Positions 9,563 to 26,788 of a DNA stretch of 64,000 bases are shown here, piece by piece. Under the pieces are notes generated by a model, which made no database searches, was not told where the DNA came from, and saw only the letters and a program-made list of their open reading frames with translations. Source of the DNA: Acidobacteriota bacterium. Lineage in GTDB: Bacteria; Acidobacteriota; Vicinamibacteria; Vicinamibacterales; JAKQTR01. The DNA lies in contig JAPKZO010000006.1 in the NCBI GenBank assembly GCA_026393755.1, positions 186,001 to 250,000 on the forward strand, in the 5' to 3' direction. The position numbers and the translations under genes were made by a program. The stretch's first letter is position 1; each line of letters begins with the position of its first letter.

Positions 9563-9727
9563 CCCTGGACCTCGGTTCGAACCGTGATCCTGGCGGGTGT
9601 AACCAAGTACAGCCCGCCTGAATCTCTTATCCGGCGGATCCGTCCAGCTCCCAGGGCGGATCGTTCTTGGCCCCCCCAGGTCGATCGCCGCCATGCCCTG
9701 ATCGGCCCGAACGGACGAGGGTTTCCG

Positions 9728-11149
9728 ATGAGTACTGCCGACATCGAGCCGCCCAGCCTGACTGACGAGACGCGCAGCCGCCTCGAGGAAGTCGCTGCAT
9801 GGTCGGCCGTCAGTGCGGCCTTCGGATCGCTCGGCCGCGCGTTCATCTGCGCCGACGCCGACTTCCGGATCATCCACGGCTCGTACGTGCTGGACGAACT
9901 GTTCGGTGACGGAGCCGCCGCGCGCATCGAAGGGCGGTCACTCGAAGAAATCTTCGGCCGGGATCTGTTCGGCACATCCGGCACCCTGCGCCAGGCGCTG
10001 ACGGCTGGTGAACGCCGCGAGGGCTGGCGCGCTCAACTGAGCATGGCCGATGGGGAAGCGCGCCTCATTTCCCTGAGCGCGGCACCGTTTCCCCAGAACC
10101 TGCGGTTGGCCTGCAGCCTCAGGGTGAAGTACGTCGTCGTGCTCCGCCCATCAGAACAGGACCGCGACGATGTGCTCGGGGCGCCGGTCACGGTGGGAGG
10201 GCTGGTGGCTCGCTCGCCGGCGATGGCCAGAATCTTCACCCTCGTCGAGAACCTCAGGCACACGGAAGCGACCGTCCTGATTACCGGCGAGAGCGGAACC
10301 GGCAAGGAACTGCTGGCTCGCCTGATTCACGACCAGTCGCCACGCCGACAGGGGCCCTTCGTCGCCGTCAACTGCGGCGCCCTCCCTCACGAACTGCTGG
10401 AGGCCGAGATGTTCGGCCACGCGCGCGGCGCGTTCACCGGGGCCGTCCGCGACCGGATCGGCCGCTGCGAGGCCGCTTCAGACGGCACGTTGTTTCTCGA
10501 CGAGGTCGGCGATCTTCCGCTGGCCTTGCAGGTGAAACTGCTCAGGGTATTGCAGGACGGGACATTCGAGCGCCTTGGCGAAAACCAGACTCGGACCAGC
10601 CGCGCCCGCGTCGTGACGGCGACCCACGTGGATCTGTCGAAGTCCGTCCGAGAAGGCCGCTTTCGCGAAGACCTGTATTACCGGCTGCGAGTCGTCCCCA
10701 TCGAGATCCCTCCGCTGCGACGTCGCCGCGAGGACATTGAACCCCTCGCGCAAGTGCTGCTTGCCCGCGTCTGCGCCCGGCACGGTCGCGCGCTCCGATT
10801 CTCGCCTGACGCGCTCCGGGTGCTGCTCGGGCACGACTGGCCCGGCAACGTCAGAGAGATGGAGAATGCCCTCGAGTACGCGGTGACGGTCTGTCAGGGA
10901 CAGACTATTCACCCCGAGGATCTTCCTGAATTGACGGGAGACAAACCAGGTACCGGAGTTGCGCTTGCCTCGCCGCCTTCCCCACGCGTCGGATCGCCCG
11001 ATCGGGGCACGGGGGATTATGAGCATCTGCGAAGCGTGCTCGACGCGCACCACTGGCGCCGCGACGAGGCGGCCCGGGCTCTCGGTATCAGCCGCATCAC
11101 TCTGTGGCGGCGGATGCGGAGATACGGAATGCTTCACGAAGAAACATAA
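9728..11149 (+). CDS. Sigma-54-dependent activator with PAS-like sensor and Fis-type HTH
   Basis: A 473-residue enhancer-binding protein. Residues about 25-140 look like a PAS sensor. The AAA+ domain has Walker A GESGTGKE (near 187), the sigma-54 contact loop GAFTGA (near 234), Walker B LFLDEVGD (near 257) and the R-finger region EDLYYRL. The last 45 residues form a Fis-like helix-turn-helix (RRDEAARALGISRITLWRRM). The ATG at 9728 is preferred over an upstream in-frame GTG at 9584. It lies directly upstream of a strong sigma-54 promoter (11255-11271), so it very probably activates the sulfur/molybdoenzyme operon that follows. The signal sensed by the PAS domain is unknown. Confidence 0.9.
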   Translation: MSTADIEPPSLTDETRSRLEEVAAWSAVSAAFGSLGRAFICADADFRIIHGSYVLDELFGDGAAARIEGRSLEEIFGRDLFGTSGTLRQALTAGERREGWRAQLSMADGEARLISLSAAPFPQNLRLACSLRVKYVVVLRPSEQDRDDVLGAPVTVGGLVARSPAMARIFTLVENLRHTEATVLITGESGTGKELLARLIHDQSPRRQGPFVAVNCGALPHELLEAEMFGHARGAFTGAVRDRIGRCEAASDGTLFLDEVGDLPLALQVKLLRVLQDGTFERLGENQTRTSRARVVTATHVDLSKSVREGRFREDLYYRLRVVPIEIPPLRRRREDIEPLAQVLLARVCARHGRALRFSPDALRVLLGHDWPGNVREMENALEYAVTVCQGQTIHPEDLPELTGDKPGTGVALASPPSPRVGSPDRGTGDYEHLRSVLDAHHWRRDEAARALGISRITLWRRMRRYGMLHEET

Positions 11150-11313: not shown

Positions 11314-11341
11314 CAGCGATTGTTCTACCCAAGGAGTGCCG

Positions 11342-12610
11342 ATGCGCAAGATCATCCTCGTCGCGACCGCAGCAATCATTCTGACGATGACGACGGCCAG
11401 ACCGGTGTCGCTACTCGCGAGTGACGGGTACTTCAGCCAAGGCTATGGGACCTGCTCCCAGGGCATGGGCGGCGCAGGCGTCGCCTTTCCGCTCGGCCCG
11501 TTATCACCCGCAACCAACCCGGCATCGCTGGTGCTCTCGGATCCTGGATGGGAATTCGGTGTCGGGCTGTTCAATCCGAATCGCCACTACGAGGTGATCG
11601 GCGACCCGTCTGGTTATCCCGGCACGTTCGGTCTTGCTCCGGGCCTCATCGACAGCGGAAGCCGTCTGTTTCCGGTCCCGCATCTGGGGTTTGCCCGCCC
11701 GCTCGGGTCCAGCGCGTCCATCGGGATCGCGGTCTTCGGCAATGGCGGGATGAACACGAACTACAGCGCTCGCACGTTTGGTTTCTCGCCGACGGGCATC
11801 AACATGTCGCAGTTGTTCGTCGCGCCGACCTACTCGATGAAGCTCAACGCGCGGAACGCCGTCGGCGTGACCGCGCTCGTGGGCTACCAGATGTTCAAGG
11901 CCGAAGGACTGCAGGCATTCAGCGCTTTCTCGAGCGATTCGAAGAACCTGACCAACAACAAGACGGATTCGGCGTTTGGTTTCGGCGTCCGTGTTGGTTA
12001 CGTTGGGCAGCTGTCCAAGTCTGTTTCCGTCGGCGCGGCGTACCAGTCGAAGGTCTACATGAGTCGCTTCAAGAAGTACGCGGGCCTGTTCGCCGAACAG
12101 GGCGGATTTGACGTGCCGTCGAACTGGACAGCCGGCGTTGGCATCAAGCTGAACGACGCATTCGACCTGGCATTCGACGTCCAGCAGATGCGTTACAGTG
12201 ACGTCAAATCGGTCGGCAACCTCATGTTGCCAAACCTGATGCAGGCGGCGCTTGGCGCGACGGGCGGCGCGGGCTTCGGATGGAAGGACATGACGGTCGT
12301 GAAGACGGGCCTGCAGTACCGCGTCGGCGGCGGCTGGACCTGGCGGGCCGGCTACTCGTACGGGAAGCAACCGATACCCTCGAGCGAGGTGCTGTTCAAT
12401 ATCCTGGCTCCGGGAGTCATCGAGCACCATGCGACCTTTGGCATCAGCAAGGATCTGGGTCGCGGACGCGCCTTCGATGTGGCCGTGATGCGCGCGTTCA
12501 ACAAGACCGTGTCTGGTCCCAATCCGCTCGAGGCACCGGGCCAGCAGACGATCACGCTCGGCATGAATCAGTGGAATGTCACCATCGGCTACTCGATCAG
12601 GTTGAAGTAA
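11342..12610 (+). CDS. FadL/OmpP1-family outer-membrane channel
   Basis: A 422-residue outer-membrane barrel. A signal peptide (MRKIILVATAAIILT...) is followed by the family's N-terminal pattern GYFSQGYGTCSQGMGGAGVA and many alternating beta strands, ending in an aromatic/charged C-terminus. FadL channels admit hydrophobic substrates such as fatty acids or hydrocarbons. The ATG at 11342 has AAGGAG six bases upstream. As first gene of the sigma-54 operon with a PsrABC-like complex it may admit a hydrophobic sulfur or organic substrate; that is inference from context only. Confidence 0.82.
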   Translation: MRKIILVATAAIILTMTTARPVSLLASDGYFSQGYGTCSQGMGGAGVAFPLGPLSPATNPASLVLSDPGWEFGVGLFNPNRHYEVIGDPSGYPGTFGLAPGLIDSGSRLFPVPHLGFARPLGSSASIGIAVFGNGGMNTNYSARTFGFSPTGINMSQLFVAPTYSMKLNARNAVGVTALVGYQMFKAEGLQAFSAFSSDSKNLTNNKTDSAFGFGVRVGYVGQLSKSVSVGAAYQSKVYMSRFKKYAGLFAEQGGFDVPSNWTAGVGIKLNDAFDLAFDVQQMRYSDVKSVGNLMLPNLMQAALGATGGAGFGWKDMTVVKTGLQYRVGGGWTWRAGYSYGKQPIPSSEVLFNILAPGVIEHHATFGISKDLGRGRAFDVAVMRAFNKTVSGPNPLEAPGQQTITLGMNQWNVTIGYSIRLK

Positions 12611-12612
12611 TC

Positions 12613-14808
12613 GTGGATGCCCTCTCCCGTCGTCGATTCCTGAAGATCTCTGCTGCCACGCTGGCCGTCACCTCATCGGCGGCCGGTGTGGCGAAGTTCG
12701 CCGACACCGCCCTTGGCAACGGGGTGCCGCCGCGCGGCGTGCAGAAGATCCCGACCTTCTGCGACATCTGCTTCTGGAAGTGCGGCGCGGTGGCCTACCT
12801 GCGTGATGGCCGGCTCTGGAAGATCGAAGGCAACCCGGCGGATCCACTCAGCCGTGGCCGCCTATGCCCGCGCGGCACGGGGGGTATCGGGGCGTACTTC
12901 GACGACGACCGGCTGAAAGCGCCACTCATCCGGAGGCGGCAGCGTGGGGAAGACGTGTGGGCCCAGGTGACGTGGGACGAGGCGCTCGGACACATCGCCG
13001 GGAAGATGCAGGCCATCAAGGCAAGGTACGGTCCCGAAGCCATCGCGCTGTTCTCGCACGGTCTGGGCGGCACGTTCCTGAAGCACACGGTGAAGGCGTT
13101 TGGCACACCGAACATCACGGCACCCTCCTTCGCGCAGTGCCGCGGGCCGCGCGACGTGGGTTTCCACCTGACGTTCGGCGAGGAGATTGGATCGCCCGAG
13201 CGCACCGACATCCGGAACAGTCGCTGTCTGGTGCTCATCGGATCGCACCTCGGCGAGAACATGCACAACTCACAGGTGCAGGAATTCGCCGAAGCCATCG
13301 GCAACGGCGCCAGCATCATCGTCGTCGATCCGCGATTTTCGGTGGCGGCCAGCAAGGCGAAACACTACCTGCCGATCAAACCCGGCACAGATTTGGCCTT
13401 GGTGCTGGCCTGGATGAATGTTCTGGTCTCTGAAGGGCTGTACGACAAGGAGTACGTCGCGCAGTACGGGTTTGGCTTCGAGGCATTCGCTGCGTCGGTC
13501 GCCGGTTTTACGCCCGAGTGGGCCTATCCGGAGACCGGCATTGAGGCGAGCCTCATCCGTGAGACCGCCCGGGAGATGGCGCGCTACCGGCCGGCGACAC
13601 TGGTGCATCCGGGCCGGCACTCGACATGGTACGGGAATGATACGCAGCGAAGTCGAGCCATCGCCCTGTTGAACGCGTTGCTTGGGAGTTGGGGCCGCAA
13701 GGGCGGGTTCTACGCCCCGGCCAGCATGGACGTTCCCGGCTACCCGTACCCGCCCTACCCGAAATCCGAGAAGGGCAAGGTCGACAATCCAGGCGCGAAG
13801 TACCCGTTCGCACTCGAGCCGATCACCACCGGGATTCGCGAGGCGACGATCACCGGTCACCCGTACCCGATCAAGGGCTGGTTTACCTACGCGACCAATC
13901 TGATCACGGCGCTGCCCAACGAGCCGGAGACGATCAAGGCCATTCGGAATCTGGACCTGCTGGTCGTCGTCGACGTGATCCCGACCGAGATGGCCGGCTG
14001 GGCTGATGTCGTCTTGCCCGAGTCGACCTACCTCGAGCGTTACGACGACGTGAACGTGGAACTGTTCCGCGAGCCATTCGTGGCGCTGCGGCAGCCCGTC
14101 GTGGCGTCACCGCATGACCAGAAACCCAACTGGTGGATTGCACGAGAATTGGCGCGAAAGCTGGGCCTCGAATCCTATTACCCCTGGAAGACCATCGAAG
14201 AGTACCTCGAGTTTCGGCTGACGAAGGCTGGCCTGAGTTTCGCGGAGCTCAAACAGAATGGCATCATCCACGGAGCGCCCCAGCCGAACTACTTCGAGGA
14301 CGGGCTGGAGCCGAAGTTCCCGACCGCGTCAGGCAAGATCGAGTTCTACTCGACGGTTCTCCGCGACAAGGGGTTTGATCCCGTGCCGACGTACGCCCGG
14401 CCAACCGAGCCTCCTCCGGGCGCCTTCCGCCTGCTCTTCGGGCGAGCACCGGTGCATTCGTTCGGCCGCACACAGTCGAATCCAATCCTCAACGACATGA
14501 TGGACGAGAACGAGGTCTGGTTGAACGCGGACATCGCCGCGCGTCTCGGTTTCGCCCACGGGTCGTATGTGAAGCTCCGCAACCAGGACGGGGTGATCAG
14601 CAACCGGGTGAAGTTGAAGGCGACCGCGCGCATTCGTTCCGACTGCGTCTATATGGTGCACGGCTTTGGTCACACGGCCGTGAGGCTGCGGCGCACGGTC
14701 GGCCGGGGGGCAAGCGACGCGCAACTCATCACCCGCTACACGACCGACCCGCTGATGGGCGGCACGGGGATGAATGTCAACTTCGTCACCGTCGAGGCGG
14801 AGGCGTAG
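12613..14808 (+). CDS. Tat-exported PsrA/PhsA-like molybdopterin oxidoreductase, catalytic subunit
   Basis: A 731-residue DMSO-reductase-family catalytic subunit. A GTG start two bases after the FadL stop gives the Tat signal SRRRFLK near residue 6. The [4Fe-4S] site is CDICFWKC near residue 47 with the fourth Cys in GRLCPRG near 84. The likely molybdenum ligand is the Cys in SFAQCRGPR near residue 175. Size and partners (four-cluster ferredoxin, NrfD membrane protein) match polysulfide, thiosulfate or sulfur reductases. With YeeE/YedE and rhodanese-like genes downstream, inorganic sulfur metabolism is likely, in the reducing or oxidising direction. It is clearly paralogous to the gene at 24444-26663. 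Confidence 0.85.
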   Translation: MDALSRRRFLKISAATLAVTSSAAGVAKFADTALGNGVPPRGVQKIPTFCDICFWKCGAVAYLRDGRLWKIEGNPADPLSRGRLCPRGTGGIGAYFDDDRLKAPLIRRRQRGEDVWAQVTWDEALGHIAGKMQAIKARYGPEAIALFSHGLGGTFLKHTVKAFGTPNITAPSFAQCRGPRDVGFHLTFGEEIGSPERTDIRNSRCLVLIGSHLGENMHNSQVQEFAEAIGNGASIIVVDPRFSVAASKAKHYLPIKPGTDLALVLAWMNVLVSEGLYDKEYVAQYGFGFEAFAASVAGFTPEWAYPETGIEASLIRETAREMARYRPATLVHPGRHSTWYGNDTQRSRAIALLNALLGSWGRKGGFYAPASMDVPGYPYPPYPKSEKGKVDNPGAKYPFALEPITTGIREATITGHPYPIKGWFTYATNLITALPNEPETIKAIRNLDLLVVVDVIPTEMAGWADVVLPESTYLERYDDVNVELFREPFVALRQPVVASPHDQKPNWWIARELARKLGLESYYPWKTIEEYLEFRLTKAGLSFAELKQNGIIHGAPQPNYFEDGLEPKFPTASGKIEFYSTVLRDKGFDPVPTYARPTEPPPGAFRLLFGRAPVHSFGRTQSNPILNDMMDENEVWLNADIAARLGFAHGSYVKLRNQDGVISNRVKLKATARIRSDCVYMVHGFGHTAVRLRRTVGRGASDAQLITRYTTDPLMGGTGMNVNFVTVEAEA

Positions 14809-14810
14809 AC

Positions 14811-15350
14811 GTGGCACGCTACGGCATGGCAATCGATACCCGGAAGTGCGTCGGGTGCATGGACTGCGTGGTTGCGTGCAAGACCGAGAACGGTGTGCCG
14901 GAGGGACTCAACCGCGACTGGATCGCCTATGAATCGGCAGGGAAGTTCCCGACGATTCACATGGAGATTCGGTCCGAACGGTGCAATCACTGTGACAATC
15001 CGCCGTGCGTGGCGTGCTGCCCGACCGGCGCCAGCCATGTGGACGACCTGGGTCACATCGTCCTTGTCACCCACAACGCGTGCATCGGATGTAAGGCGTG
15101 CCTGGCGTCCTGCCCGTACGACGCGCGGTTCGTGCATCCGGACGGATACGCCGACAAGTGCACGTTCTGCGCGCACCGCGTCGGCGAGGGCCTCGATCCT
15201 GCGTGCGTCATGGTGTGCCCGACGCGCTGCTTTACCTTCGGCGATCTCGATGATCCCCAAAGCGCGATCACTCGCGTGCTCGAGTCGCGCAGGGGACATG
15301 CTCTCCTGACTGACGCCGGCACCGGGCCGCGCATCTTCTACCTGGACTGA
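14811..15350 (+). CDS. PsrB-like ferredoxin subunit with four [4Fe-4S] clusters
   Basis: A 179-residue electron-transfer subunit of the DMSO reductase B family. Four cysteine groups are visible: CVGCMDCVVAC (near residue 13), CNHCDNPPCVACC (near 59), CIGCKACLASC (near 92) and CTFC...CVMVC (near 119-135). The GTG start lies two bases after the stop of the catalytic subunit. It should carry electrons between the periplasmic molybdenum subunit and the NrfD-type quinol site. Confidence 0.9.
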   Translation: MARYGMAIDTRKCVGCMDCVVACKTENGVPEGLNRDWIAYESAGKFPTIHMEIRSERCNHCDNPPCVACCPTGASHVDDLGHIVLVTHNACIGCKACLASCPYDARFVHPDGYADKCTFCAHRVGEGLDPACVMVCPTRCFTFGDLDDPQSAITRVLESRRGHALLTDAGTGPRIFYLD

Positions 15351-15361
15351 CGTGGTGATCC

Positions 15362-16324
15362 ATGACGCCTGAACTGTTCATCACGCGGCATAACGAACTG
15401 GTGGACCCGTTCGTCCAGGTCTGGAGTTGGCAGATCCCGGTCTATCTGTTTCTCGGCGGGCTGGTGGCTGGCATGATGATCATCACCGGCTTCTCGCTCG
15501 TGAAAGGGCGCTATGGCGAGCGCTCGTGCATCTGCTCGGCGCTGCCGGGTGTTGGCCTCGTGATGCTCAGCCTTGGCATGCTGGCCCTGTTCCTGGACCT
15601 CGAGCACAAGTGGTACGTCTGGCGTCTCTACACGACATTCCAGCCGTCCTCGCCGATGTCGTGGGGCGCGTGGATTCTCGTGCTGGTCTATCCCGTGCTC
15701 ATCGCAAGCTGGCTTGTCCGGCCTCCCGCTCTGCTTGAGGATCTCAGCCAGACCGTCGAGCGCGCGTCGGCATGGCTGCAGGCCCGGCCGCAGGCCGTTC
15801 GTGCGATGGGTGCGGCCAGCCTTGGGCTCGGCGTGGCGCTCGGGATCTACACGGGGATCCTGCTGAGCTCGCTTGGAGCCAGGCCGTTGTGGTCGAGCGG
15901 CATTCTGGGCCCGCTCTTCCTCGCCTCCGGGCTCTCGGCGGCCGCCGCGTTCACGCACATGGTGGCCCGAAACGAGCACGAACGCATCGAGATGGCGCGC
16001 CTGGACAACGTGGCGCTCACTGCCGAATTGGGCATCCTGGCGCTGCTGATGCTCGGCCTGTTCTCCGGCAGCGCACCACAGATGGCGGCGGCGGGCCTGT
16101 TCATGGGAGGCGCGTACACGGCCCCGTTCTGGGTGTTCGTTGTCGCGCTCGGCATCGTGATGCCGCTGATTATTCAGAACCTGGCCGTGGCGCACCGAAT
16201 CGCGCACACACCGCTCGCACCGTTGATGGTGATGACCGGAAGCCTCGCGCTGCGGTTTGTCTTCGTTCAGGCGGGGCAGATGAGCCACTGGGCGCACGGT
16301 GTGTTGGGGGTCATCAGGCATTGA
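15362..16324 (+). CDS. NrfD/PsrC-family membrane quinone-interacting subunit
   Basis: A 320-residue integral membrane protein with about eight hydrophobic helices, starting near residue 20 (QIPVYLFLGGLVAGMMI, the usual first helix of the NrfD family). It completes a PsrABC-type complex with the two preceding genes and should exchange electrons with the quinone pool. No haem ligands are expected in this family. The start ATG is 11 bases after the previous stop. Confidence 0.87.
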   Translation: MTPELFITRHNELVDPFVQVWSWQIPVYLFLGGLVAGMMIITGFSLVKGRYGERSCICSALPGVGLVMLSLGMLALFLDLEHKWYVWRLYTTFQPSSPMSWGAWILVLVYPVLIASWLVRPPALLEDLSQTVERASAWLQARPQAVRAMGAASLGLGVALGIYTGILLSSLGARPLWSSGILGPLFLASGLSAAAAFTHMVARNEHERIEMARLDNVALTAELGILALLMLGLFSGSAPQMAAAGLFMGGAYTAPFWVFVVALGIVMPLIIQNLAVAHRIAHTPLAPLMVMTGSLALRFVFVQAGQMSHWAHGVLGVIRH

Positions 16325-16354: not shown

Positions 16355-16891
16355 ATGACGACAACAACTGGTGATCGCCGGCCGCAGGCGTACACGAATC
16401 CCTATCTGGCCGGGATCGGCCTCGGCCTGGTGCTGCTCTCCTCGTTCGTCCTCGTGGGACGAGGCCTGGGAGCATCGGGCGCGTTCAATTCGGTCATCGC
16501 TTGGGCCGTCAACGCAGTCGCTCCGGCTCATGCGAGGAGCAACGAGTTCATCGCCGGCTATCTCGGTGACGGCAGCGCATCGCCGCTCAAGTCGTGGCTG
16601 GTGTTCGAAGTGATTGGCGTGTTCGCCGGAGCCATGCTGTCGGGTCTGCTGGCCGGCCGCACGAAGGTCATGACCGAAAAGGGCCCGCGCGTGTCGGTCC
16701 GCATGCGGCTGGCGATGGCGTTCGCCGGCGGCATACTGATGGCGTTCGGAGCGGCGCTGGCTCGCGGATGCACGAGCGGTCAGGCGTTGACCGGTGGCGC
16801 CCTGCTGAATCTCGGCAGTTGGGTGTTCATGATGATGGTATTCGCCGGGGCGTATGCCGTGGCGTATTTTGTCAGGTGGCAATGGCGATGA
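16355..16891 (+). CDS. YeeE/YedE (TsuA-like) sulfur transporter, first half
   Basis: A 178-residue membrane protein with about four helices. The stretch ARGCTSGQALTGGALL near residue 138 is the conserved Cys-containing motif of YeeE/YedE transporters, where Cys relays thiosulfate. GAAAGGA precedes the ATG at 16355; nothing supports the longer frame from 16328. It overlaps the next gene, which supplies the other half of the family's usual fold. Probable role: uptake of thiosulfate or a related sulfur species for, or from, the molybdoenzyme pathway. Confidence 0.8.
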   Translation: MTTTTGDRRPQAYTNPYLAGIGLGLVLLSSFVLVGRGLGASGAFNSVIAWAVNAVAPAHARSNEFIAGYLGDGSASPLKSWLVFEVIGVFAGAMLSGLLAGRTKVMTEKGPRVSVRMRLAMAFAGGILMAFGAALARGCTSGQALTGGALLNLGSWVFMMMVFAGAYAVAYFVRWQWR

Positions 16892-17484
16892 TGGCACCCT
16901 TTTTCAAGTACGGGCTGTTCGGCGACCAGACGAGCCTGGTTGTCGCATTCTTCATCGGCATCGGTTTCGGGTTCTTCCTCGAACGCGCAGGGTTAGCCAG
17001 CGCACGCAAACTCATGGCGCAGTTCTACCTGACCGATCTCGCCGTGTTCAAGGTGATGTTCACCTCAATCATCACCGCCATGCTTGGCCTCACGTATCTT
17101 TCGTGGCTGGGCTGGCTGGACCTGTCGCTGGTGTACCTGGTGCCCACCTACCTGATGCCGCAGGTTGTCGGTGGCCTGGTACTCGGTGCGGGCTTCGTCA
17201 CCGGGGGATACTGCCCCGGCACGTCGGTTGCCGCCACGGCGACAGGACGCGTCGATGGCCTGGTGTCAATCCTCGGCATCACCTTCGGGATGTTCGTCTT
17301 CGCCGAAGCCTTCCCGCTCGTGAAGGGGTTTTACCTGAGCGGAGCAGGGGAGGCGATGACCATACCGAAGGCCTTTGGCTTGCCCTACGGGCTCGTTGTG
17401 TTCGCAGTGGTCCTGATGGCGCTCGGGGGGTTCTACGGGGCGGGAATCCTCGAGAAGAAGATCGCGGCTCGATCCGGGGAGTGA
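16882..17484 (+). CDS. YeeE/YedE (TsuA-like) sulfur transporter, second half
   Basis: A 200-residue membrane protein with about five helices and the second conserved motif GAGFVTGGYCPGTSVAA. The ATG at 16882 has AGGTGG upstream and overlaps the preceding gene by 10 bases; in-frame ATGs at 16888 and 16891 are alternatives. Together the two half-proteins equal one full YeeE/YedE transporter like the single-chain version at 36638-37870, so the transporter here is split. Confidence 0.78.
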   Translation: MAMMAPFFKYGLFGDQTSLVVAFFIGIGFGFFLERAGLASARKLMAQFYLTDLAVFKVMFTSIITAMLGLTYLSWLGWLDLSLVYLVPTYLMPQVVGGLVLGAGFVTGGYCPGTSVAATATGRVDGLVSILGITFGMFVFAEAFPLVKGFYLSGAGEAMTIPKAFGLPYGLVVFAVVLMALGGFYGAGILEKKIAARSGE

Positions 17485-17487
17485 ACG

Positions 17488-18156
17488 ATGCGCAAGTGGA
17501 TCTCGACGCTCACCCTCAATAAGACCCTTGCGCTCGTGGCGCTGACCCTTGGTGCGATTGCCGTCTTCGCGGTGCCGGTGCCTGGCGGCACGATCACGCT
17601 GGATGCTAAGGAACTCGCCCTCGTCATCGGCAGGGAAGCCGATCATGTTGATCCGCCCGAGCTGGCGTCGTGGATCATCGAAGCCCGTGCCGACTATCGC
17701 CTGATCGACCTGCGCGGAGAAGCCGCGTTTGCGCAGTACTCCATCCCTGGCGCGATCAACGTGCCAACGGCGAGGCTGATCGACGCGGGACTTGGTCGTC
17801 CCGAGAAGCTCGTCTTGTACTCTGACGACGGCGTGGGTGCGGCTCAAGCCTGGATGCTGCTTAGAGCCCGGGGCTACAAGGCGGTCTACATGCTCAAGGG
17901 CGGCCTCGACGGATGGAAGGACCAGGTGATGTTTCCGATCGTCGCCGATAACCCCACCCCTGATCAGCGGACCCGCGACGAACGCGCGCGTTCGGTCAGC
18001 GCGTTCTTCGGTGGCCGGCCGCGCAGTTCGTCAACCGTTGCGGCTGGAGGATCGGGGTTCGCGATGCCGACAGTCCCGACCCTGCCAAAGGTGGCCGCGC
18101 CAGCGTCGCCAACGGGCGGAGCAAAGCCCACGGCAAAGAAGAGGGAAGGATGCTAG
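17488..18156 (+). CDS. Membrane-anchored rhodanese-like protein lacking the active-site Cys, with C-terminal Cys
   Basis: A 222-residue protein: an N-terminal signal or anchor (residues about 11-30), then a rhodanese fold with RLIDLRGEAAFAQYSIPGA near residue 70. The active loop reads LVLYSDDGVGAAQ, where a catalytic rhodanese would have Cys in place of the Ser. The domain ends with GGLDGWK. A Pro/Ala/Gly/Ser-rich tail of about 55 residues follows and ends KKREGC. That last residue is the only cysteine in the protein. It is the last gene of the sigma-54 operon, four bases after the transporter. A sulfur-carrier role for the tail is inference. Confidence 0.78.
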   Translation: MRKWISTLTLNKTLALVALTLGAIAVFAVPVPGGTITLDAKELALVIGREADHVDPPELASWIIEARADYRLIDLRGEAAFAQYSIPGAINVPTARLIDAGLGRPEKLVLYSDDGVGAAQAWMLLRARGYKAVYMLKGGLDGWKDQVMFPIVADNPTPDQRTRDERARSVSAFFGGRPRSSSTVAAGGSGFAMPTVPTLPKVAAPASPTGGAKPTAKKREGC

Positions 18157-18201: not shown

Positions 18202-18453
18202 GTGGAAGCCTCCGACATCCTTGCCTACGTCCACCGGGACTGGCAGCGCGTGGCCGACGCGAAGACAGCGTTTTGGCTTGAAACCAAGCGTGGCCTTGCG
18301 CCCGACGACGCCCTGACAATCGGCGGCCTGCTCTACAAACAGGTACGGCGTGCCCGCCCGGACTGGTTGGGCGAAGCCGACCGTTCCGCCGACCTGGCGG
18401 TTCACGTTCGCGTGACAGAGGCCCTTCGTGCCGTCTTCAATCGGCCCGTCTGA
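18202..18453 (+). CDS. Small soluble protein, partner of the adjacent nucleotidyltransferase
   Basis: An 83-residue protein of unknown family, GTG start. It contains no Cys, signal or membrane segment and is rich in charged helices. Its last 26 bases overlap the start of the nucleotidyltransferase gene, so the two are translated together. The arrangement (small protein ahead of a minimal nucleotidyltransferase) resembles two-gene toxin-antitoxin pairs. Function is not established. Confidence 0.5.
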   Translation: MEASDILAYVHRDWQRVADAKTAFWLETKRGLAPDDALTIGGLLYKQVRRARPDWLGEADRSADLAVHVRVTEALRAVFNRPV

Positions 18454-19012
18454 TCTGCTCGCGGCACTCTCTCGCACCCTCGCGGGCCTCAACGTGCCCT
18501 GGTACGTGTTCGGCGCGCAGGCTGCGCTGATCTGGGGCCGGCCGCGCATGACGATGGACGTCGATGTCACCGTGCGGTTGGGAGACACGGACAGCGGCAC
18601 GTTGGTCAGCGCATTGCAGGCAGTCGGGTTTGACCTCCGCATCGTCGCGACGCAGGACTTCGTGCAGCAGACCCGGGTACTGCCGTTCAGCCATCGACCA
18701 ACCGGCCTCGCCGTCGATGTCGTGCTGGCTGGCCCTGGTCTGGAGGACGCTTTTCTTTCCCGGGCCGTCGTGCTGGAGATTGGCGGAACGAAGGTCCCGG
18801 TGATCAGCGCCGAAGATCTGATTGTCACGAAGATTCTCGCGGGACGTCCCAAAGACATCGACGACATTCGCGGCGTGCTCCAGGAGCGCGGCGGCGGCCT
18901 CGACATCGATCAGATCCGAAGCACTATCGAGATGCTGGAGCAGGCTCTAGGACAAAGCGACCTGCTGCCCATCCTCGACACCGAGATCGATCGGTGGCGC
19001 CGGCACGGCTGA
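18428..19012 (+). CDS. Nucleotidyltransferase of the AbiEii/DUF6036-like group
   Basis: A 194-residue protein with a minimal nucleotidyltransferase core: WYVFGAQAALIWGRPRMTMDVDV near residues 26-48 contains the G-x-x-A and the D-V-D metal-binding pair, and DVVLAG near 98 is the third acidic position. The end (EDLIVTKILAGRPKDIDDI) is typical of AbiEii-type toxins and related proteins. GTG start at 18428 within the preceding gene. Likely one half of a toxin-antitoxin pair. Confidence 0.68.
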   Translation: MPSSIGPSDLLAALSRTLAGLNVPWYVFGAQAALIWGRPRMTMDVDVTVRLGDTDSGTLVSALQAVGFDLRIVATQDFVQQTRVLPFSHRPTGLAVDVVLAGPGLEDAFLSRAVVLEIGGTKVPVISAEDLIVTKILAGRPKDIDDIRGVLQERGGGLDIDQIRSTIEMLEQALGQSDLLPILDTEIDRWRRHG

Positions 19013-19629: not shown

Positions 19630-22407
19630 CTAGCTCCAGACCGGCAAGACACACCGCGGGCTGCGCCGTGCCAACAGGCGTTCGAAATCCCGCACGGAGT
19701 CGCGCATGACGGCCGAGCTGGCCTTGTGGCACGTCAAACACGCACCCACCCTGAGAATCCGGCGCTGTTCTTCGATACTGAACGGCCGGACGTCGTCTCG
19801 CGTCGAGACCATGTCGTGGCGCTCGCCGAGAAACGGGATCCACGCGTTGGCTGGAAATCCGTCAGACGGCAGACGCTCCGAAGCGGGGGTGAACCGCCAT
19901 CGCCCGCCAGCCGGCGTTGGTTCGTAGCGCAGGTCGCCGCGACCATAGCCGAGCGCGGTCGGGTTGTTGTGACACGACTCGCACGATCGCACCTCCCGCC
20001 TCGTCGTGTGCGGCTCGATGCGTGCGTAGAGCCGGCGGAACAGGAGATCTGACGGACGCCCCGCCTCGCGCTTGCGTTCAATGGTGAGGATCATCGCCGG
20101 GACAAACGTCTCGATCACCTCCCGCCGCGCGCCAGTTCCTTCGGGAAGACGCCGAATGCCGAGTGTGGGGAGGTCGGCAGCAAACGGGCCGGCCTTTTCA
20201 CTCCAGGCGCCGCGGACATCGGCGTTGTCGATCCAATCGTAGGCAGCCGCCGAGGCGTCAAACGACGTGTGGCACGTCGGACAGCGGGGTGCCCACGCGG
20301 TGTGGCAACTTCCACACGAGAGCCGCGTGTGGCCAGGGCCTTCGAGGCACACGGGGATCGCCGGCTTGAGGTCTCTCCGCTCGCCGGTCCGCTTGCGAAC
20401 CATGCGGGGCGTCCCCGTCGCGTCGATCAGCGCATTGACGAGGACGTCACCCTTCGGCGTCCTGACATAGTGACTCGGCTTGGGTCCAGGCCAGTTTCGC
20501 AACCCAAGAATCCGCTGCGATTCCGGGTCAATCCCGGCGGCCGCGACAACAGCCAATCGGGTTCCGGGAAGGGCGTGGCAGTCCTCGCACGCGACCCTGA
20601 GTTGCTCGCTCTTGCGACCGTGCGCGACGCCATCTCCCATCACTTCGGTAGACGTGTGGCAATCGATGCAGTCGAGACCCCGCTGCTGGTGGATATCGGG
20701 GATCAGGCGCTTGAAGATGCGATCATCCTCTATTCTGCGAAATCCCGACGGCACGGGCCGGGACCGATCGGATGCCTCGGTGGGGGCATCATTGATCTCG
20801 GTCCAGCCTTCGAAACTCGTTGCGATGCGGGCCGATCGACTATGGCAACCAAGGCACTGCCCGTTGCCGACGTCGAGCGACAGCGCCGGATGGACAGAGG
20901 GCGCCGCCGCTGCGCCCCGCATCTTCTGGTTCTCATAACGGGTCAACTCCGCCAGCGCCGCCGGGCTGTACGTCAGATGACACGCATTGCACCCGCCTCC
21001 GCGCGTCCCCTCGCCGTTGGGTCCCAGCGCGACCTTGGCCATCCCGAGGTGGCATCCCGCGCAGAGTTGCCTCATGTGCGTGTCAGCCGCCGTCCGGCCG
21101 AGATCCCGCACGTGGACGGGGCCATTCTGTCGACCGGCGCCTTCCTCGCCGAAGACGCGACGGTTGATGGCCACGATGCCGCTCATCGTGGCCATCAATG
21201 ACCCCTCGACACGGGGGACAATCGAGGCGTGGCATGCGGCCTGGCCGCATCCGCGAATCGCCCTGGCCAGATTGCCCGCGATGACCTCCATGCCGGCGTG
21301 CGCACGCCGTTTGTCGACGGTGAACGGGTCGCCGCCGTGACACGACGCGCACCCGATGGCCTCGGGCCGGTGTGCGTTACCGAGTCCGGTAACGCCTCGA
21401 TGGCAGATCAGACAGCCTTCGGGCCGCCCCATCACAACTGGAAGGGGTGCCGGAAGCGGAGAAGGCGCGTCGGGCGTCGCGGCGAGTAACCAGCCCACGC
21501 GCACGTTTCCGGCCCCGGTCGGCCAGCCGGCTTTCCACGACCAGTTCTCGCCGCGCAGAAAGCTTCCAACGCCGCACAGCCCGAGGTACGTCACTGCCAG
21601 AGCCAGCAGGATGCCCTTCGTCCAGCGCGCACCGGTCGCCGGGGCTGCCTGCACCGCATAGATAGCGCCCACGACAGCCGCACCTGCCGCGACGACGACA
21701 AGAGGCCACGGGGTCCAGTGCAGGATCTCCTGGAGACCGAGGAAGTACCACGGTCCCTTGACGACAGGTTCCAGGCCATCGTGCAGACCGGGAGACATGA
21801 CGAGCGAGATGCCGCTGGTGACCAGCAAGACCGCCAGAAAGGCCGACCAGCGAGGCCACACGCGGCGTGCGTGCTCAATGACGAAGAGCCACACGATGAT
21901 GGTCGCGGTAGCTGCATGCTGCACGTAGATCACGTCGAGGCGCTCGCCCGCACCGAAGAGCAACGTCGCCATCAACGGCCCGAGCATCGGCACCTGCGAG
22001 GTGGCCTCGCTCAGGATTCGCATGGCCTGCCGTCCCTCGGCGTCGCCGCGCAGCATGAACCCCGAGAGCATGATGAATGCCAGCAGTGGCAGCGTCAGTG
22101 CCAGACGAAGCCACACGCCCCGGCCCACGCGCTGTTCGGTTCGCGCGCGCAAGTGATCCCACATGTGGAGCAGCGTCAGCACCAGGCACAACTGGCCGGC
22201 CCAGTAGTGCGTGTTGCGAAAGAACGCCCCCGCGGGATTGCCGAGCATTAGGGCAGCGATCGAGCGGTAGCCGTCCTGTGCGTCGTACGGCACGGCGACG
22301 GCCGCGCCGGAGACAGCGGCGATGACAAATGCCGCCGTCGCGCCATCGCCGAGGGTACCCCATCGAAAGGCGAGAATGGGTGCGGGCTCGCCGCTGTCAG
22401 GAGACAC
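19630..22407 (-). CDS. Cytochrome b6/subunit IV fused to a 12-haem cytochrome c domain
   Basis: A 925-residue fusion. The first 320 residues are a membrane cytochrome b: in one helix two His are 13 residues apart (HYW...LLH) and in a later helix two His have 14 between (QHAATA...IEH), the spacing of cytochrome b6. A Qo-site-like GPWYFLGLQE follows with three more helices. The remaining 600 residues are periplasmic with 11 CxxCH sites (CLICH, CASCH, CAGCH, CNACH, CLGCH, CIDCH, CEDCH, CGSCH, CPTCH, CESCH, CLTCH) plus one CGQAACH (Cx4CH). The GTG at 22407 has GGAGGG upstream and overlaps the Rieske gene by 11 bases. It should oxidise quinol with the Rieske protein and pass electrons along the haem wire. 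Confidence 0.88.
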   Translation of the reverse strand: MSPDSGEPAPILAFRWGTLGDGATAAFVIAAVSGAAVAVPYDAQDGYRSIAALMLGNPAGAFFRNTHYWAGQLCLVLTLLHMWDHLRARTEQRVGRGVWLRLALTLPLLAFIMLSGFMLRGDAEGRQAMRILSEATSQVPMLGPLMATLLFGAGERLDVIYVQHAATATIIVWLFVIEHARRVWPRWSAFLAVLLVTSGISLVMSPGLHDGLEPVVKGPWYFLGLQEILHWTPWPLVVVAAGAAVVGAIYAVQAAPATGARWTKGILLALAVTYLGLCGVGSFLRGENWSWKAGWPTGAGNVRVGWLLAATPDAPSPLPAPLPVVMGRPEGCLICHRGVTGLGNAHRPEAIGCASCHGGDPFTVDKRRAHAGMEVIAGNLARAIRGCGQAACHASIVPRVEGSLMATMSGIVAINRRVFGEEGAGRQNGPVHVRDLGRTAADTHMRQLCAGCHLGMAKVALGPNGEGTRGGGCNACHLTYSPAALAELTRYENQKMRGAAAAPSVHPALSLDVGNGQCLGCHSRSARIATSFEGWTEINDAPTEASDRSRPVPSGFRRIEDDRIFKRLIPDIHQQRGLDCIDCHTSTEVMGDGVAHGRKSEQLRVACEDCHALPGTRLAVVAAAGIDPESQRILGLRNWPGPKPSHYVRTPKGDVLVNALIDATGTPRMVRKRTGERRDLKPAIPVCLEGPGHTRLSCGSCHTAWAPRCPTCHTSFDASAAAYDWIDNADVRGAWSEKAGPFAADLPTLGIRRLPEGTGARREVIETFVPAMILTIERKREAGRPSDLLFRRLYARIEPHTTRREVRSCESCHNNPTALGYGRGDLRYEPTPAGGRWRFTPASERLPSDGFPANAWIPFLGERHDMVSTRDDVRPFSIEEQRRILRVGACLTCHKASSAVMRDSVRDFERLLARRSPRCVLPVWS

Positions 22408-22846
22408 GGGCAGTCCACCCTCCGGAGACCGGATCCGGTTCGATGTTGAACGGCTTGAGCGGACGCGTCGCGGGTCCGGTCGAAACCGTGCCGTCGGCGC
22501 GATACCGCGACCCGTGACAGGGACAGACCGCCTCGTCGCCGACAATCCGGTCGATACGGCAGCCCAGATGCGTGCAGCGCGCGGAAAAGACACGGATGGT
22601 GCCGTTGTCGGCGCGGTCGACAATGACCGCATCGAGCACGGACAGACCGACGGACACATCAGGCGGGATCGTGATTGTCGCGGGGACGCTCGCAGTCTGC
22701 TCGCGCCGCAGCATGGCAACAAGCCCGCCCAGGAAGGGAAGCGTCAGTCCAACGCCCATGAGACGCCGCAACACTTGCCGGCGTGAACGGCGAACCTCGT
22801 CACCTGGACCTTGCGCGGGAGCGGCGAACTGCCTCCTGGGTACCAT
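22397..22846 (-). CDS. Rieske iron-sulfur protein
   Basis: A 149-residue Rieske subunit of a cytochrome bc-type complex. It has a twin-arginine membrane anchor (SRRQVLRRLMGVGLTLPFLGG, residues 21-41) and the cluster ligands CTHLGC and CPCHGS. It overlaps the cytochrome b6/multihaem gene by 11 bases, a clear sign that the two form one complex. It should accept the first electron from quinol at the Qo site. Confidence 0.92.
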   Translation of the reverse strand: MVPRRQFAAPAQGPGDEVRRSRRQVLRRLMGVGLTLPFLGGLVAMLRREQTASVPATITIPPDVSVGLSVLDAVIVDRADNGTIRVFSARCTHLGCRIDRIVGDEAVCPCHGSRYRADGTVSTGPATRPLKPFNIEPDPVSGGWTARVS

Positions 22847-22892
22847 CCTTGGAATTCTACCGTGAGCGGTCGGGATCCGGGTCTGTCGCCGG

Positions 22893-23693
22893 TCATTCAG
22901 GTCGAACGGGCTCGGTCGGTCCGGCGATGTCAGCCGGATGGCCAGTCTCGTCGTCGTGCTGCCGGTCCCAGACTCCTTCTTCCGCCTTCACGATGGTCCA
23001 CCACTTGAAGTGATGGCTGTAGGCATACAGTTCGTTGACCGTCCCCGTGATCATCGAGAAGAAAGCCGGCTTCTCTTCGGGGAAGACCGCACCCATGTAG
23101 ACGTGAATCATCAGGCCGGACACAACGAGTCCCGCCGCGCCAAAGTGCACCACCACGGCCCAGCCGACCACCTGCGTGCCGAACAGGCGAAACGCCATCA
23201 CCACCCCGCTCGCCATGACGACGGGGATCATTGTATAGACCAGGAAGGCGAACAGCTTCTGTCCCGCATTGTAGATGCCCTGCGGAGGAAGAGGTTCGCT
23301 GGTCCATCCGAGAATCCGCTGCGTGCGCACAATCAGCCATCGGACATCGTCGCGATCGAGTGCGATTTCGTGCTGGAGCACTTCCCTCGACAGGTACGTA
23401 CGAAATCCGAAGATGCCGTAGACGAGGTACACGCCGATCCACGAGAGTCCCAGTGCCACGTGAATCTGTAATACATTGGCCCGGCTGCCGAAGATGCCTT
23501 CGACAAGGGATATGTACCAGCTCGGTGCGACGCGGAAGAGCGGCGAGGAAATCAGCGCCAGCCCCGTCAGCAGTTCGGAGCCCCACACGAGGGCATTGAA
23601 CCAGTGCAGCAGGATGATGGCGATGTGGTGTTTCTTGACGTGCCGCTGGAGCATGGCTTCGGCCTGCTCCGAGGTGAGCGGCAACGGACGCAC
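22893..23693 (-). CDS. Di-haem cytochrome b561/FdnI-like membrane subunit
   Basis: About 266 residues with four main helices, of the cytochrome b561 / formate dehydrogenase gamma group. Likely haem ligands are in HHIAIILLHWFNAL, HVALGLSW and VVHFGAAGLVVSGLMIHVYMG. The GTG at 23693 lies 10 bases after the preceding FeS gene; an ATG at 23654 with GGAGCAGG upstream is a shorter alternative. It should link the molybdenum/FeS module to quinone, taking the place of the NrfD subunit found in the plus-strand operon. Confidence 0.8.
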   Translation of the reverse strand: MRPLPLTSEQAEAMLQRHVKKHHIAIILLHWFNALVWGSELLTGLALISSPLFRVAPSWYISLVEGIFGSRANVLQIHVALGLSWIGVYLVYGIFGFRTYLSREVLQHEIALDRDDVRWLIVRTQRILGWTSEPLPPQGIYNAGQKLFAFLVYTMIPVVMASGVVMAFRLFGTQVVGWAVVVHFGAAGLVVSGLMIHVYMGAVFPEEKPAFFSMITGTVNELYAYSHHFKWWTIVKAEEGVWDRQHDDETGHPADIAGPTEPVRPE

Positions 23694-23703
23694 GGGAACG
23701 GCG

Positions 23704-24435
23704 TCAGTCCTCAAAATCCTTCTCCCCGTTTCTGAGCTGGTTGAAGAACGCCACCGCCTGTCCGACAAACGTCGCCCCGACAGCCGCCAGGACGAGCGGT
23801 TTCAGCACCCGGCTCCATGCTTCTCCGGCGGCCAGCAATCGGGGCGGTCGGGGCGGGAACGCGGCCATGACCAGATCCGCGCGCGCCTGTTCTCCGGCGT
23901 AATAGACATTCGGGCCGACCCTGACCCGGCTGGTCTCCATGCGGCGTGCCCCCATCGCGTAGACCATCTTGAAGACGTCGCTGTGCCGGTCCTCGAGATC
24001 GCCAAAGTACTTCGCGTGGGCCGTGCAGGTGGTCACGCATGCCGGTTCCGCCCCGCGTTCGAGGCGCGCCAGGCAGAAGTCGCACTTATCAACCTTCTTC
24101 GTGACGGGGTTGATGTAGCGGGCGTCGTACGGACAGGCGTCGAGACAGAACCCGCATCCGATGCACAGGCTCTTGTCCACCTCAACAATCCCGTTCGCAC
24201 CCTGAGACGTGGCGCCAGACGGGCACGCCTCGACACACGGCGGTCGGTCGCACTGGTTGCACTGCGCCACATAGACGCCGGAGGCCAGGTGAGGGAACGT
24301 GCCACTGATCGGGGTTGAGCGAACCCGTGTCCGGGCGTACCCGGCCGGCACGCCCCATTCGGCGTTGCAGGCCACGGTGCAGGCCTGGCAGGCCACGCAC
24401 TTTGTGAGATCGGTCACCATGGCGTATCGGGCCAC
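23704..24435 (-). CDS. Four-cluster FeS subunit with C-terminal membrane anchor
   Basis: A 243-residue DMSO-reductase-B-type ferredoxin. Cysteine groups CVACQACTVAC (near residue 13), CNQCDRPPCVEAC, CIGCGFCLDAC and CDFC...CVTTC hold four [4Fe-4S] clusters. Unlike the paralogue at 14811 it carries a C-terminal helix (LKPLVLAAVGATFVGQAVAFF), as in FdnH-type subunits that dock to a b-type cytochrome. The GTG start has AGGAGG four bases upstream. It lies between the molybdenum subunit (8 bases before) and the b561-like gene. Confidence 0.88.
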   Translation of the reverse strand: MARYAMVTDLTKCVACQACTVACNAEWGVPAGYARTRVRSTPISGTFPHLASGVYVAQCNQCDRPPCVEACPSGATSQGANGIVEVDKSLCIGCGFCLDACPYDARYINPVTKKVDKCDFCLARLERGAEPACVTTCTAHAKYFGDLEDRHSDVFKMVYAMGARRMETSRVRVGPNVYYAGEQARADLVMAAFPPRPPRLLAAGEAWSRVLKPLVLAAVGATFVGQAVAFFNQLRNGEKDFED

Positions 24436-24443
24436 TGATCCTC

Positions 24444-26663
24444 CTAGATCCCGGTCGTCTGCTTCACGACACGGACGAAATTCACGCGCATGCCGGTGCC
24501 CCCCATCAGTGGATCGACCTTCACGCGGGTCATCAGCCCGGTGTCCGAGGCCCCTCGTTTGAATGCGCGATGAAGGCCCTTCGATCGCTGACCGAAGCCA
24601 TGCACGAGGTACGCGCAATCTTGGCGGATGCCTTCGGTCACCTTCACCCGCACAGGCAGGCTTCGGACGCCGTCGGTGTTCTCGAGCACGACCCGATCGC
24701 CCTCGCGCAGCCCCAGGTCTGTGGCGGACCTGGTGCTCAACCAGGCTTCGTTCTCGGCCATCAACGCGTTCAGCACTTCGTTGTTCTGGGTTCGTGCGAA
24801 CGAGTGCACCGGCGCGCGGCCGTAGATGAGGCGGAGGTACCCGGCTGGCGGATCCTCCACCGGCGTGTAGCGAGGTAGCGGGTCGGCCCCGAGGTTCTCG
24901 AGTTCCCGGGAGAACAGCTCGATCTTGCCGCTGCCCGTCGGGAACGGCGACTCGCTATCCGCAGCCCGGTCGTCCAGATACGGCCGCCCTGGAAATGCCA
25001 CGGCTCCCCGGGCCCGGAGTTCTTCGCCATTGATATCCATCGGCGCGATGATCGTCGCCAGGTGCTCGTCGGGGGTGTTCCAGGGGAACCACGCATCGAG
25101 ACCCAGCCGTTTGGCCGTCTCCTTGGCGATCCACCAGCCCGGCTTCGATTCGTAAAGGGGGTCGCAGGCCGGGAAGCGCACCGAGACGAATGGCTGCCGG
25201 GCTGTCGTGACGATCGAGGGGGAGTCGTAGCGCTCAAGATAAGTCGCTTCGGGCAGCACCAGGTCGGCGTAATTGATCTGCTCGACCGGAAGAACGTCGA
25301 CGACAACCATCAGATCGAGTGCGTCGATCGCCTTCAACGTCTTCTGCGGCTCGGGGATGCTCTCCAGGACATTTTGCCCGTACACGATCCAGGCCTTGAT
25401 CGGGTACGGCTTCCCAGTGACGGTTGCATCGACCAGTCCGTTGGTGACGCCCAGTTCCTCCGACGCCAGCGGGTAGCGAGTACCAGCGCCGTCGGCTCTG
25501 CCGCGCGGCGGGTCCGGGAAGGGAGGCAGATCAAAGGCCCCCTTGGGGATTGGCGTTGGCAGAAAGATGCCGCCCTTGCGCCCCCAGCTGCCAAGCAGTG
25601 CCGTCAGAATCGCCATGGCGCGCGCGCGTTGCGTGTCGTCGCCATACCAGGTGACGTGCCGGCCTGGGTGGACCACCACGGCCGGCTTCGCGGCCCCCAT
25701 CGCCCTGGCGGTGTCCCGAATCTGTGCCGCCGGCAGTTGCGTGATCGCCGCCGCCCATTCGGGCGTGAACTCGCGGACGTGTGTGGCGAGCTCGTTGAAC
25801 CCCTGCGCGTACCGGGTGATGTACTCCTGGTCATGCAGACCTTCCGCGATCAGCACGTTCATCCAGGCCAGCAGGAGTGCGATGTCGGTGCCGGGCCGGA
25901 TCGGGAGCCACCAGTCCGCCTTGGAGGCCGCCGTCGAGAACCGCGGGTCAACGGCAATCACCTTCGCGCCACGTGACAACGCCGTCGCGAACGCCGTGAT
26001 CTGGGACGTGAACACGTTCTCGCCGAGGTGGCTGCCGATGAGGACGATGAGCCGTGATTCCTCGAGATCGAGAGGCTCAGGCGATCCGAGTTCCCGTCCG
26101 AACGTGAGCGTGTAGCCAACTTCCCTCGGACCCCGGCACTGCGCGAATGACGGTTCGGCGCTGTTCGGCGTTCCGTACGCCTTCATGAGGGTGCTGAAGA
26201 ACCGAGCGCTCAGCCCGTGGGGAAACAACGCGACGCTCTCCGGGCCATGCTCGACAGCGATAGCCTTCAGTCTCGACGCGAGAAAGTCGAGCGCCTCGTT
26301 CCAGCTGATGCGCCTGAACTGTCCCTCGCCTCGCTTTCCCGTTCTGAGGAGGGGGAACTTCAGTCGATCGGGGTCGTAGAGCAGGCTGGTTCCGGCATTG
26401 CCGCGCGCGCACAGCCTGCCCTTGGTCAACGGGTGATCCGGGTTGCCTTCGAGCCTGACGACCTTGCCGTCGGCCACATTGGCAAGGACGCCGCACCGCC
26501 AGAAACACATTTCACACGTCGTGGCGATCTTCTCGACGCGCTGCGTCCCACTCCATCCCGGGGGATGGTTCTCGGCGTTCACCGCGGTCGACGTGGCCGC
26601 GGTGCCCGCGCCGACTGCGGCGATCGTGCCAAGGAATCGTCGCCTCGAAACCGTGTTGTCCAT
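24444..26663 (-). CDS. Second Tat-exported PsrA/PhsA-like molybdopterin oxidoreductase
   Basis: A 739-residue paralogue of the protein at 12613-14808. It has a Tat signal (SRRRFLG), a [4Fe-4S] site CEMCFWRC near residue 44 with the fourth Cys in GRLCARG, and the same probable molybdenum ligand region SFAQCRGPR. Long stretches are shared with the paralogue (GSHLGEN, DPRFS.AASKA, GRH.TWYG.DTQR). ATG at 26663 is used; an ATG at 26690 would add nine residues. Here the partners are an anchored FeS protein, a b561-like protein and a Rieske/cytochrome b6 complex. Substrate is probably an inorganic sulfur compound or another oxyanion; it cannot be fixed from sequence. Confidence 0.85.
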   Translation of the reverse strand: MDNTVSRRRFLGTIAAVGAGTAATSTAVNAENHPPGWSGTQRVEKIATTCEMCFWRCGVLANVADGKVVRLEGNPDHPLTKGRLCARGNAGTSLLYDPDRLKFPLLRTGKRGEGQFRRISWNEALDFLASRLKAIAVEHGPESVALFPHGLSARFFSTLMKAYGTPNSAEPSFAQCRGPREVGYTLTFGRELGSPEPLDLEESRLIVLIGSHLGENVFTSQITAFATALSRGAKVIAVDPRFSTAASKADWWLPIRPGTDIALLLAWMNVLIAEGLHDQEYITRYAQGFNELATHVREFTPEWAAAITQLPAAQIRDTARAMGAAKPAVVVHPGRHVTWYGDDTQRARAMAILTALLGSWGRKGGIFLPTPIPKGAFDLPPFPDPPRGRADGAGTRYPLASEELGVTNGLVDATVTGKPYPIKAWIVYGQNVLESIPEPQKTLKAIDALDLMVVVDVLPVEQINYADLVLPEATYLERYDSPSIVTTARQPFVSVRFPACDPLYESKPGWWIAKETAKRLGLDAWFPWNTPDEHLATIIAPMDINGEELRARGAVAFPGRPYLDDRAADSESPFPTGSGKIELFSRELENLGADPLPRYTPVEDPPAGYLRLIYGRAPVHSFARTQNNEVLNALMAENEAWLSTRSATDLGLREGDRVVLENTDGVRSLPVRVKVTEGIRQDCAYLVHGFGQRSKGLHRAFKRGASDTGLMTRVKVDPLMGGTGMRVNFVRVVKQTTGI

Positions 26664-26788
26664 GACGGGGAGTCCCTCTGTCGGTGGCATGCTCCTCGAG
26701 CGCCCAATGCCCGCCGCGCCAATATGCCGTGTCGATGCGGATCGAGCGCCCGAAGAGCGTGCGCATATCGAGCGCGCGGACACTCGCG

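Follow-up and report, generated by a model that had tools for sequence, protein, structure and literature searches.

A Cysteine-Tailed Pseudo-Rhodanese beside a Split YeeE Transporter: a Candidate Sulfur-Carrier Arm in Acidobacteriota

Introduction

What does a rhodanese-fold protein do once the catalytic cysteine of the fold is gone and its only cysteine is the last residue of the chain? The question is raised by a gene in the window, the whole 64,000-nucleotide stretch of Acidobacteriota DNA analyzed here, where it closes an operon of polysulfide reductase-like genes and two half-length YeeE genes (Table 1). The way in which YeeE-type importers are presented with sulfane sulfur on their periplasmic side has been discussed as unresolved (PMC11582611). 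An arm with one Cys, tied or fused to a split importer with two, would make this presentation step addressable by single point mutations. The rhodanese fold would here have been reused as the body of a carrier, with the reactive thiol shifted to the tail.

Table 1. Features of the operon and of the pseudo-rhodanese (window positions)
Feature	Coordinates	Strand	Remarks
Sigma-54-type activator gene, upstream of the FadL-psr-yeeE operon	9584-11149	+	
FadL/OMPP1-type outer-membrane protein gene, upstream	11336..12610	+	PF03349, E 3.5e-19
psrA, molybdopterin subunit, twin-Arg leader SRRRFLK	12589..14808	+	Start approximate; best solved match 2vpw_A
psrB, 4Fe-4S subunit	14811..15350	+	PF13247, E 4.1e-23
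psrC, NrfD-type membrane subunit	15362..16324	+	PF03916, E 1.3e-37
YeeE half a, 178 aa, RGCTSGQ motif, one Cys (Cys139)	16355..16891	+	PF04143, E 5.1e-21 (longer start used)
YeeE half b, ~200 aa, GYCPGTS motif, one Cys (Cys111)	16882..17484	+	PF04143, E 3.5e-9; start codon inferred
Pseudo-rhodanese with C-terminal Cys tail	17488..18156	+	222 aa + stop (translation); one Pfam domain, PF00581
N-terminal transmembrane helix, residues 10-27	17515..17568	+	AlphaFold2 model and charge bias
Rhodanese-fold domain, residues 53-150	17644..17937	+	PF00581; pLDDT ~95
Pseudo-active loop	17821..17841	+	Ser112 codon TCT at 17821-17823 replaces catalytic Cys; loop region reads YSDDGVGAAQ
Pro/Ala/Gly linker, variable, residues 181-215	18028..18132	+	One invariant Pro200
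Basic tip KKREGC (protein ends ...AKKREGC)	18136..18153	+	Sole Cys222, codon TGC at 18151-18153
AbiEii/DUF6036-type nucleotidyltransferase gene, directly 3' of the operon	18428-19012	+	

A rhodanese fold without its catalytic cysteine

The window protein belongs to the rhodanese fold family without being a catalytic rhodanese. PF00581 (Rhodanese) matches residues 61 to 145 with an E value of 2.7e-16 (60.3 bits against a cutoff of 22.2), and a Pfam scan at E values up to 0.01 found nothing besides this domain, with neither SoxY (PF13501) nor DsrC (PF04358) among the hits. In catalytic rhodaneses, the Cys lies in the loop after strand β-3 as part of a Cx4R/T or Cx5R arrangement (PMC10135228). 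The corresponding loop of the window protein reads LVLYSDDGVGAAQAW, with Ser112 at the position of the catalytic Cys, and a Cys count over the translation finds one such residue among 222, namely, the last. An earlier note on this DNA had claimed both the Ser-for-Cys replacement and the lone terminal Cys, and both are borne out. Its description of the tail as flexible Pro/Ala/Gly sequence fits the linker but leaves out the conserved basic KKREGC in which the tail ends.

An AlphaFold2 run on a 50-sequence alignment gave a mean pLDDT of 84.7, with about 95 across the rhodanese domain and low values from about residue 181 onward, in the linker and tail; a single-sequence model (pLDDT 39.6) was discarded. 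The best match of the modeled domain among solved structures is 6mxv_B (Z 16.9, rmsd 2.0 over 112 residues), and such matches to solved rhodaneses indicate that the fold is intact even though the nucleophile is gone. The net charge is +2.5 ahead of the N-terminal helix and −0.8 behind it, a bias shared by 47 of 50 homologues, and this predicts an N-in/C-out topology in which the rhodanese domain and the tail would be periplasmic. The twin-Arg leader of PsrA suggests that this subunit shares a compartment with the pseudo-rhodanese.

Conservation of the tail and loss of the loop cysteine

Homologues were gathered from the host phylum, Acidobacteriota, and from a scan of named genomes. Scanning genome contigs with the single window protein as the query gave no matches; the main scan relied on two patterns, neither of which covered the loop Cys position or the tail. 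Matches carried the labels Acidobacteria, Ignavibacteriae/Bacteroidetes/Chlorobi, Calditrichaeota, Myxococcales/Deltaproteobacteria, Eisenbacteria, and Opitutaceae, together with one Gammaproteobacteria MAG.

The earlier note had proposed conservation of the terminal Cys as a check on its reading, and the family passes it: 64 of 66 closed members end in GC, and one ends in GCS. In the remaining case (L062), which comes from a low-coverage MAG contig, a TGA interrupts the frame, and KKKKEGC can be read past it without a frame change. Homologues without the terminal Cys or with a normal loop Cys, which that note had named as evidence against itself, were sought in the family, and none were found. 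At the catalytic loop position, the aligned rows hold S (60 rows), A (8 rows), G (2 rows), and C (1 row), and every closed family member has S, A, or G. The single row with a loop Cys (L057) was rejected as a member, being an unrelated two-domain rhodanese that lacks the tail.

Mean conservation is highest in the last five residues (0.93), intermediate in the rhodanese domain (0.73), and lowest in the linker (0.42), and G221 and C222 are invariant in the alignment (A3). The family sample spans about 29 clusters below 60% identity, throughout which the terminal Cys persists. In the 4.43-Mb genome, the only instance of the motif K/R-K/R-K/R-E-G-C-stop is that of the window gene; the terminal Cys is therefore far from a chance feature. 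Conservation of the tail for reasons of DNA or RNA is opposed by the tip codons, which differ synonymously and include all four Gly codons, and by the use of three different stop codons after the tip. Among control rhodaneses drawn from the same profile, the final residue is Cys in 2 of 28, each of them fused to a YeeE sequence or located after one.

Gene neighborhood and the split YeeE transporter

All genes of the operon lie on the same strand, and the rhodanese gene begins 3 nucleotides past the stop codon of YeeE half b. The earlier note had placed the gene behind sulfur transporter and PsrABC-like genes, and this description holds for psrA, psrB, psrC, and the two YeeE halves upstream. 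The first three encode molybdopterin, Fe-S, and NrfD subunits in the order of PsrABC/PhsABC. Among solved structures, PsrA is closest to that of the Thermus thermophilus PsrABC polysulfide reductase (2vpw_A, 757 bits); compared with that system, the operon additionally contains the split YeeE and the tailed rhodanese; the solved-structure search gave no significant match for PsrC. The NCBIfam PhsA model scores the psrA product at 489 bits, under its equivalog cutoff of 694, and we therefore leave the substrate of PsrA unassigned. The PF04143 proteins are both of half length and have a single conserved Cys apiece, which corresponds to a split YeeE/PmpAB transporter. YeeE half a aligns with the C-terminal half of the thiosulfate transporter YeeE of S. 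thermophila (6leo), and Pfam identifies half b as the other half of the transporter. Each half, like the rhodanese, contains exactly one Cys.

Upstream DNA of 5.4 kb or more was available at 34 loci, and 33 of them keep the order psrA-psrB-psrC-yeeE_a-yeeE_b-rhod. A FadL-type gene stands in front of psrA in two of these 33; the product of the one in the window could possibly serve as an entry route for hydrophobic sulfur. Downstream of rhod, genes resembling mobA or moaA, as judged by eye, are often found.

The Cys-tailed pseudo-rhodanese has its constant partner in the split YeeE transporter and not in PsrABC, as indicated by a locus without adjacent psrABC and by gene fusions. In Gemmatirosa kalamazoonensis KBS708, the order yeeE_a-yeeE_b-rhod is present with a C terminus of ARLRRRGC, and psrABC was not seen within about 6.9 kb upstream. 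Using a relative as the query, we found fusions in which YeeE half b runs on into a membrane helix and then a rhodanese domain that is Cys-less; their tails end in KKEKKIQGGC, KKGGGC, RRRGC, KKKKNRGC, TGGCS, GGGCSA, or similar sequences. The Cys lies within the final four residues in 16 of 17 fusions examined, the exception (L141) having additional rhodanese domains. One of the fusions, a gene labeled both L122 and L036, falls within the subfamily of the window protein. The window protein itself combines the features by which we delimit the family: a Cys-less loop, a Cys at or at most three residues from the C terminus, and a position adjoining or fused to YeeE half b. The tethered swinging arm proposed in the earlier note is supported, and a conserved tip after a variable linker suits it, with the qualifications that the constant partner is the split YeeE and that a persulfide on the terminal Cys is putative.

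Several variants of this architecture were also observed. L141 and L040, from the same genome (G117), join YeeE half b in one frame to several rhodanese domains, one of which has a loop Cys, and a second multirhodanese reading frame beside them ends in PKKRKSVGC. Another YeeE-rhodanese fusion, beside a multiheme cytochrome sequence (L136), ends in PLYCTAH, with a Cys near the end and without the basic tip. Six fusions ending in GGC (L027, L031, L113, L114, L115, and L117) group apart from the KEGC family with 100/100 support in a tree of the short rhodanese domain. The combination of a Cys-less domain with a Cys tail may therefore have had more than one origin.

A putative sulfur-carrier arm and alternative explanations

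We consider it fairly likely that the pseudo-rhodanese is a periplasmic, membrane-anchored docking platform whose swinging arm carries sulfur between polysulfide reductase and split YeeE. With the catalytic Cys of the fold lost, the sole working thiol would be the one that ends a flexible tail rich in Lys and Arg (KKxEGC). Docking by the pseudo-rhodanese domain would keep the protein close to both transporter and reductase, the arm would accept sulfane sulfur, from persulfide or polysulfide, at periplasmic PsrA, and Cys222 would carry it as a persulfide. The tail would then swing to the opening of the split YeeE importer on the periplasmic side, where the sulfur would be handed to the single Cys of each YeeE half; the tail lysines may help by attracting polysulfide anions. 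An inward direction, from PsrA through the tail to YeeE, is suggested by analogy with import by YedE1E2, and the combination of a variable linker and a conserved tip fits the prediction for a swinging arm.

Published work bears on this model from both sides. In its favor, zero-valent sulfur is imported by the split YedE1E2, for which a Cys in each half is required (PMC10812762), SoxY bears sulfur on the Cys of a C-terminal GGCGG (PMC6067878), and a Cys-to-Cys relay from SoxY through YeeE-type channels is considered in the SoxT paper (PMC11582611). Against it, the channel Cys residues are about 7 Å apart, which makes direct Cys-to-Cys transfer inside YeeE questionable (PMC11582611). Because the design recurs across many phyla, adjoining or fused to the split transporter, the Cys-tailed pseudo-rhodanese probably serves as an arm for delivering sulfur to that transporter. 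YeeE systems of known mechanism pass sulfur to a TusA-like partner, yet no TusA was found in the host genome (rated 100% complete and carrying three YeeE-family genes) by a search that was positive in 11 of 14 control genomes, and this weakens the carrier model. We give about even chances to the broader proposal of a distinct class of periplasmic carriers. In this proposal, a catalytically dead rhodanese domain, either docked on a split YeeE importer or fused to it, would use its terminal Cys arm to load the channel, with a Cys relay from the tail to YeeE_b and YeeE_a, and the arm would be an extracytoplasmic counterpart of the cytoplasmic TsuB/TusA partner.

The almost constant linkage to psrABC could instead point to a role like that of Sud, in which the tail Cys gathers polysulfide sulfur and gives it to PsrA for respiration, YeeE being a separate neighbor present by accident or for regulation. 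The Sud protein of Wolinella, which is rhodanese-like and periplasmic, supplies Psr (cited in PMC2754497). We nevertheless regard this explanation as rather unlikely, as YeeE remains where psrABC is not adjacent, in Gemmatirosa, and Cys-less rhodaneses are fused to YeeE itself. Alternatively, the terminal Cys could form a structural or regulatory mixed disulfide, or bind a metal or cofactor, holding YeeE and PsrA together with no sulfur as cargo. Inactive rhodanese domains are usually seen as protein interaction modules (PMC10135228), and an invariant tip could serve as a binding motif. The tips of relatives, however, differ (KEGC, GGGC, RRRGC, and GGCSS), which is a poorer fit to one precise binding site, and a variable linker with a conserved tip in a sulfur setting suits a mobile carrier better; we think such a role unlikely.

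Persulfidation of the tail could also act as a sulfur sensor that gates YeeE or signals sulfur status without bulk transfer. SoxT1B has been discussed as moving sulfur for signaling (PMC11582611), and the operon is preceded by a gene for a sigma-54-type regulator. Pfam finds no signaling domain in the protein, however, and we consider this function very improbable. Hardly probable at all is that KKxEGC is a sorting or lipid-anchoring signal. The motif is short, basic, C terminal, and conserved, as such a signal would be, but the protein already has a membrane helix, the fusions carry an entire transporter half, and the six-residue motif occurs once in the host genome, whereas sorting signals recur across many proteins.

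Comparison with known sulfur carriers

The carrier arm favored here has partial likenesses among characterized systems. SoxY of SoxYZ works in a periplasmic sulfur setting with a swinging arm that bears a single Cys at its Gly-rich C-terminal tip, and the analogy drawn to it in the earlier note is strengthened by distant relatives that end in GGC, GGGC, or GGGCSA. The window protein itself ends in KKREGC in place of the SoxY GGCGG motif, and it differs further in its rhodanese fold, its membrane anchor, its Lys-rich tip with Cys usually as the last residue, and its linkage to YeeE and Psr instead of Sox. A SoxY search of the host genome gave no match, nor did the same search of control genomes.

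In Sud, the Cys belongs to a rhodanese-type active site. Sud of Wolinella succinogenes resembles the window protein in being periplasmic, rhodanese-like, single-Cys, and associated with PsrABC, and its structure (1qxn) is matched by the family profile with an E value of 3.8e-4. The window protein differs from it in having Ser at the active-site position, a membrane anchor, and its Cys222 on a tail outside the domain. DsrC, the other analogue named in the earlier note, shares with it the concept of a sulfur-metabolic protein whose flexible C-terminal tail bears Cys. It is a cytoplasmic protein of another fold with two Cys on its arm, whereas the window protein has the rhodanese fold, one tail Cys, and a predicted periplasmic location.

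The closest likeness on the transporter side is to PmpAB/YedE1E2, since two neighbor genes in the operon encode half-YeeE proteins with one conserved Cys each, but the characterized pairs have no Cys-tailed rhodanese partner described in the literature searched. More generally, no description of a Cys-tailed rhodanese with YeeE or PmpAB was found in the open-license literature searched, and an earlier account elsewhere is possible. These comparisons suggest that rhodaneses labeled inactive for want of a loop Cys merit a check for a C-terminal Cys.

Other genes in the window and host genome

A DsrE-family protein is encoded elsewhere in the host genome. Within the window, a full-length YeeE/PF04143 transporter (positions 36638 to 37870, plus strand; 195.8 bits) has a Pro/Ala-rich insertion in its middle and is without a rhodanese or Cys tail. 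Positions 19630 to 26783 of the minus strand hold a second molybdopterin oxidoreductase cluster, which encodes a PsrA/PhsA-like protein of 779 residues, a 4Fe-4S protein, a cytochrome b561-type protein, and a Rieske protein, along with a 1,030-residue reading frame that combines cytochrome b and multiheme c domains.
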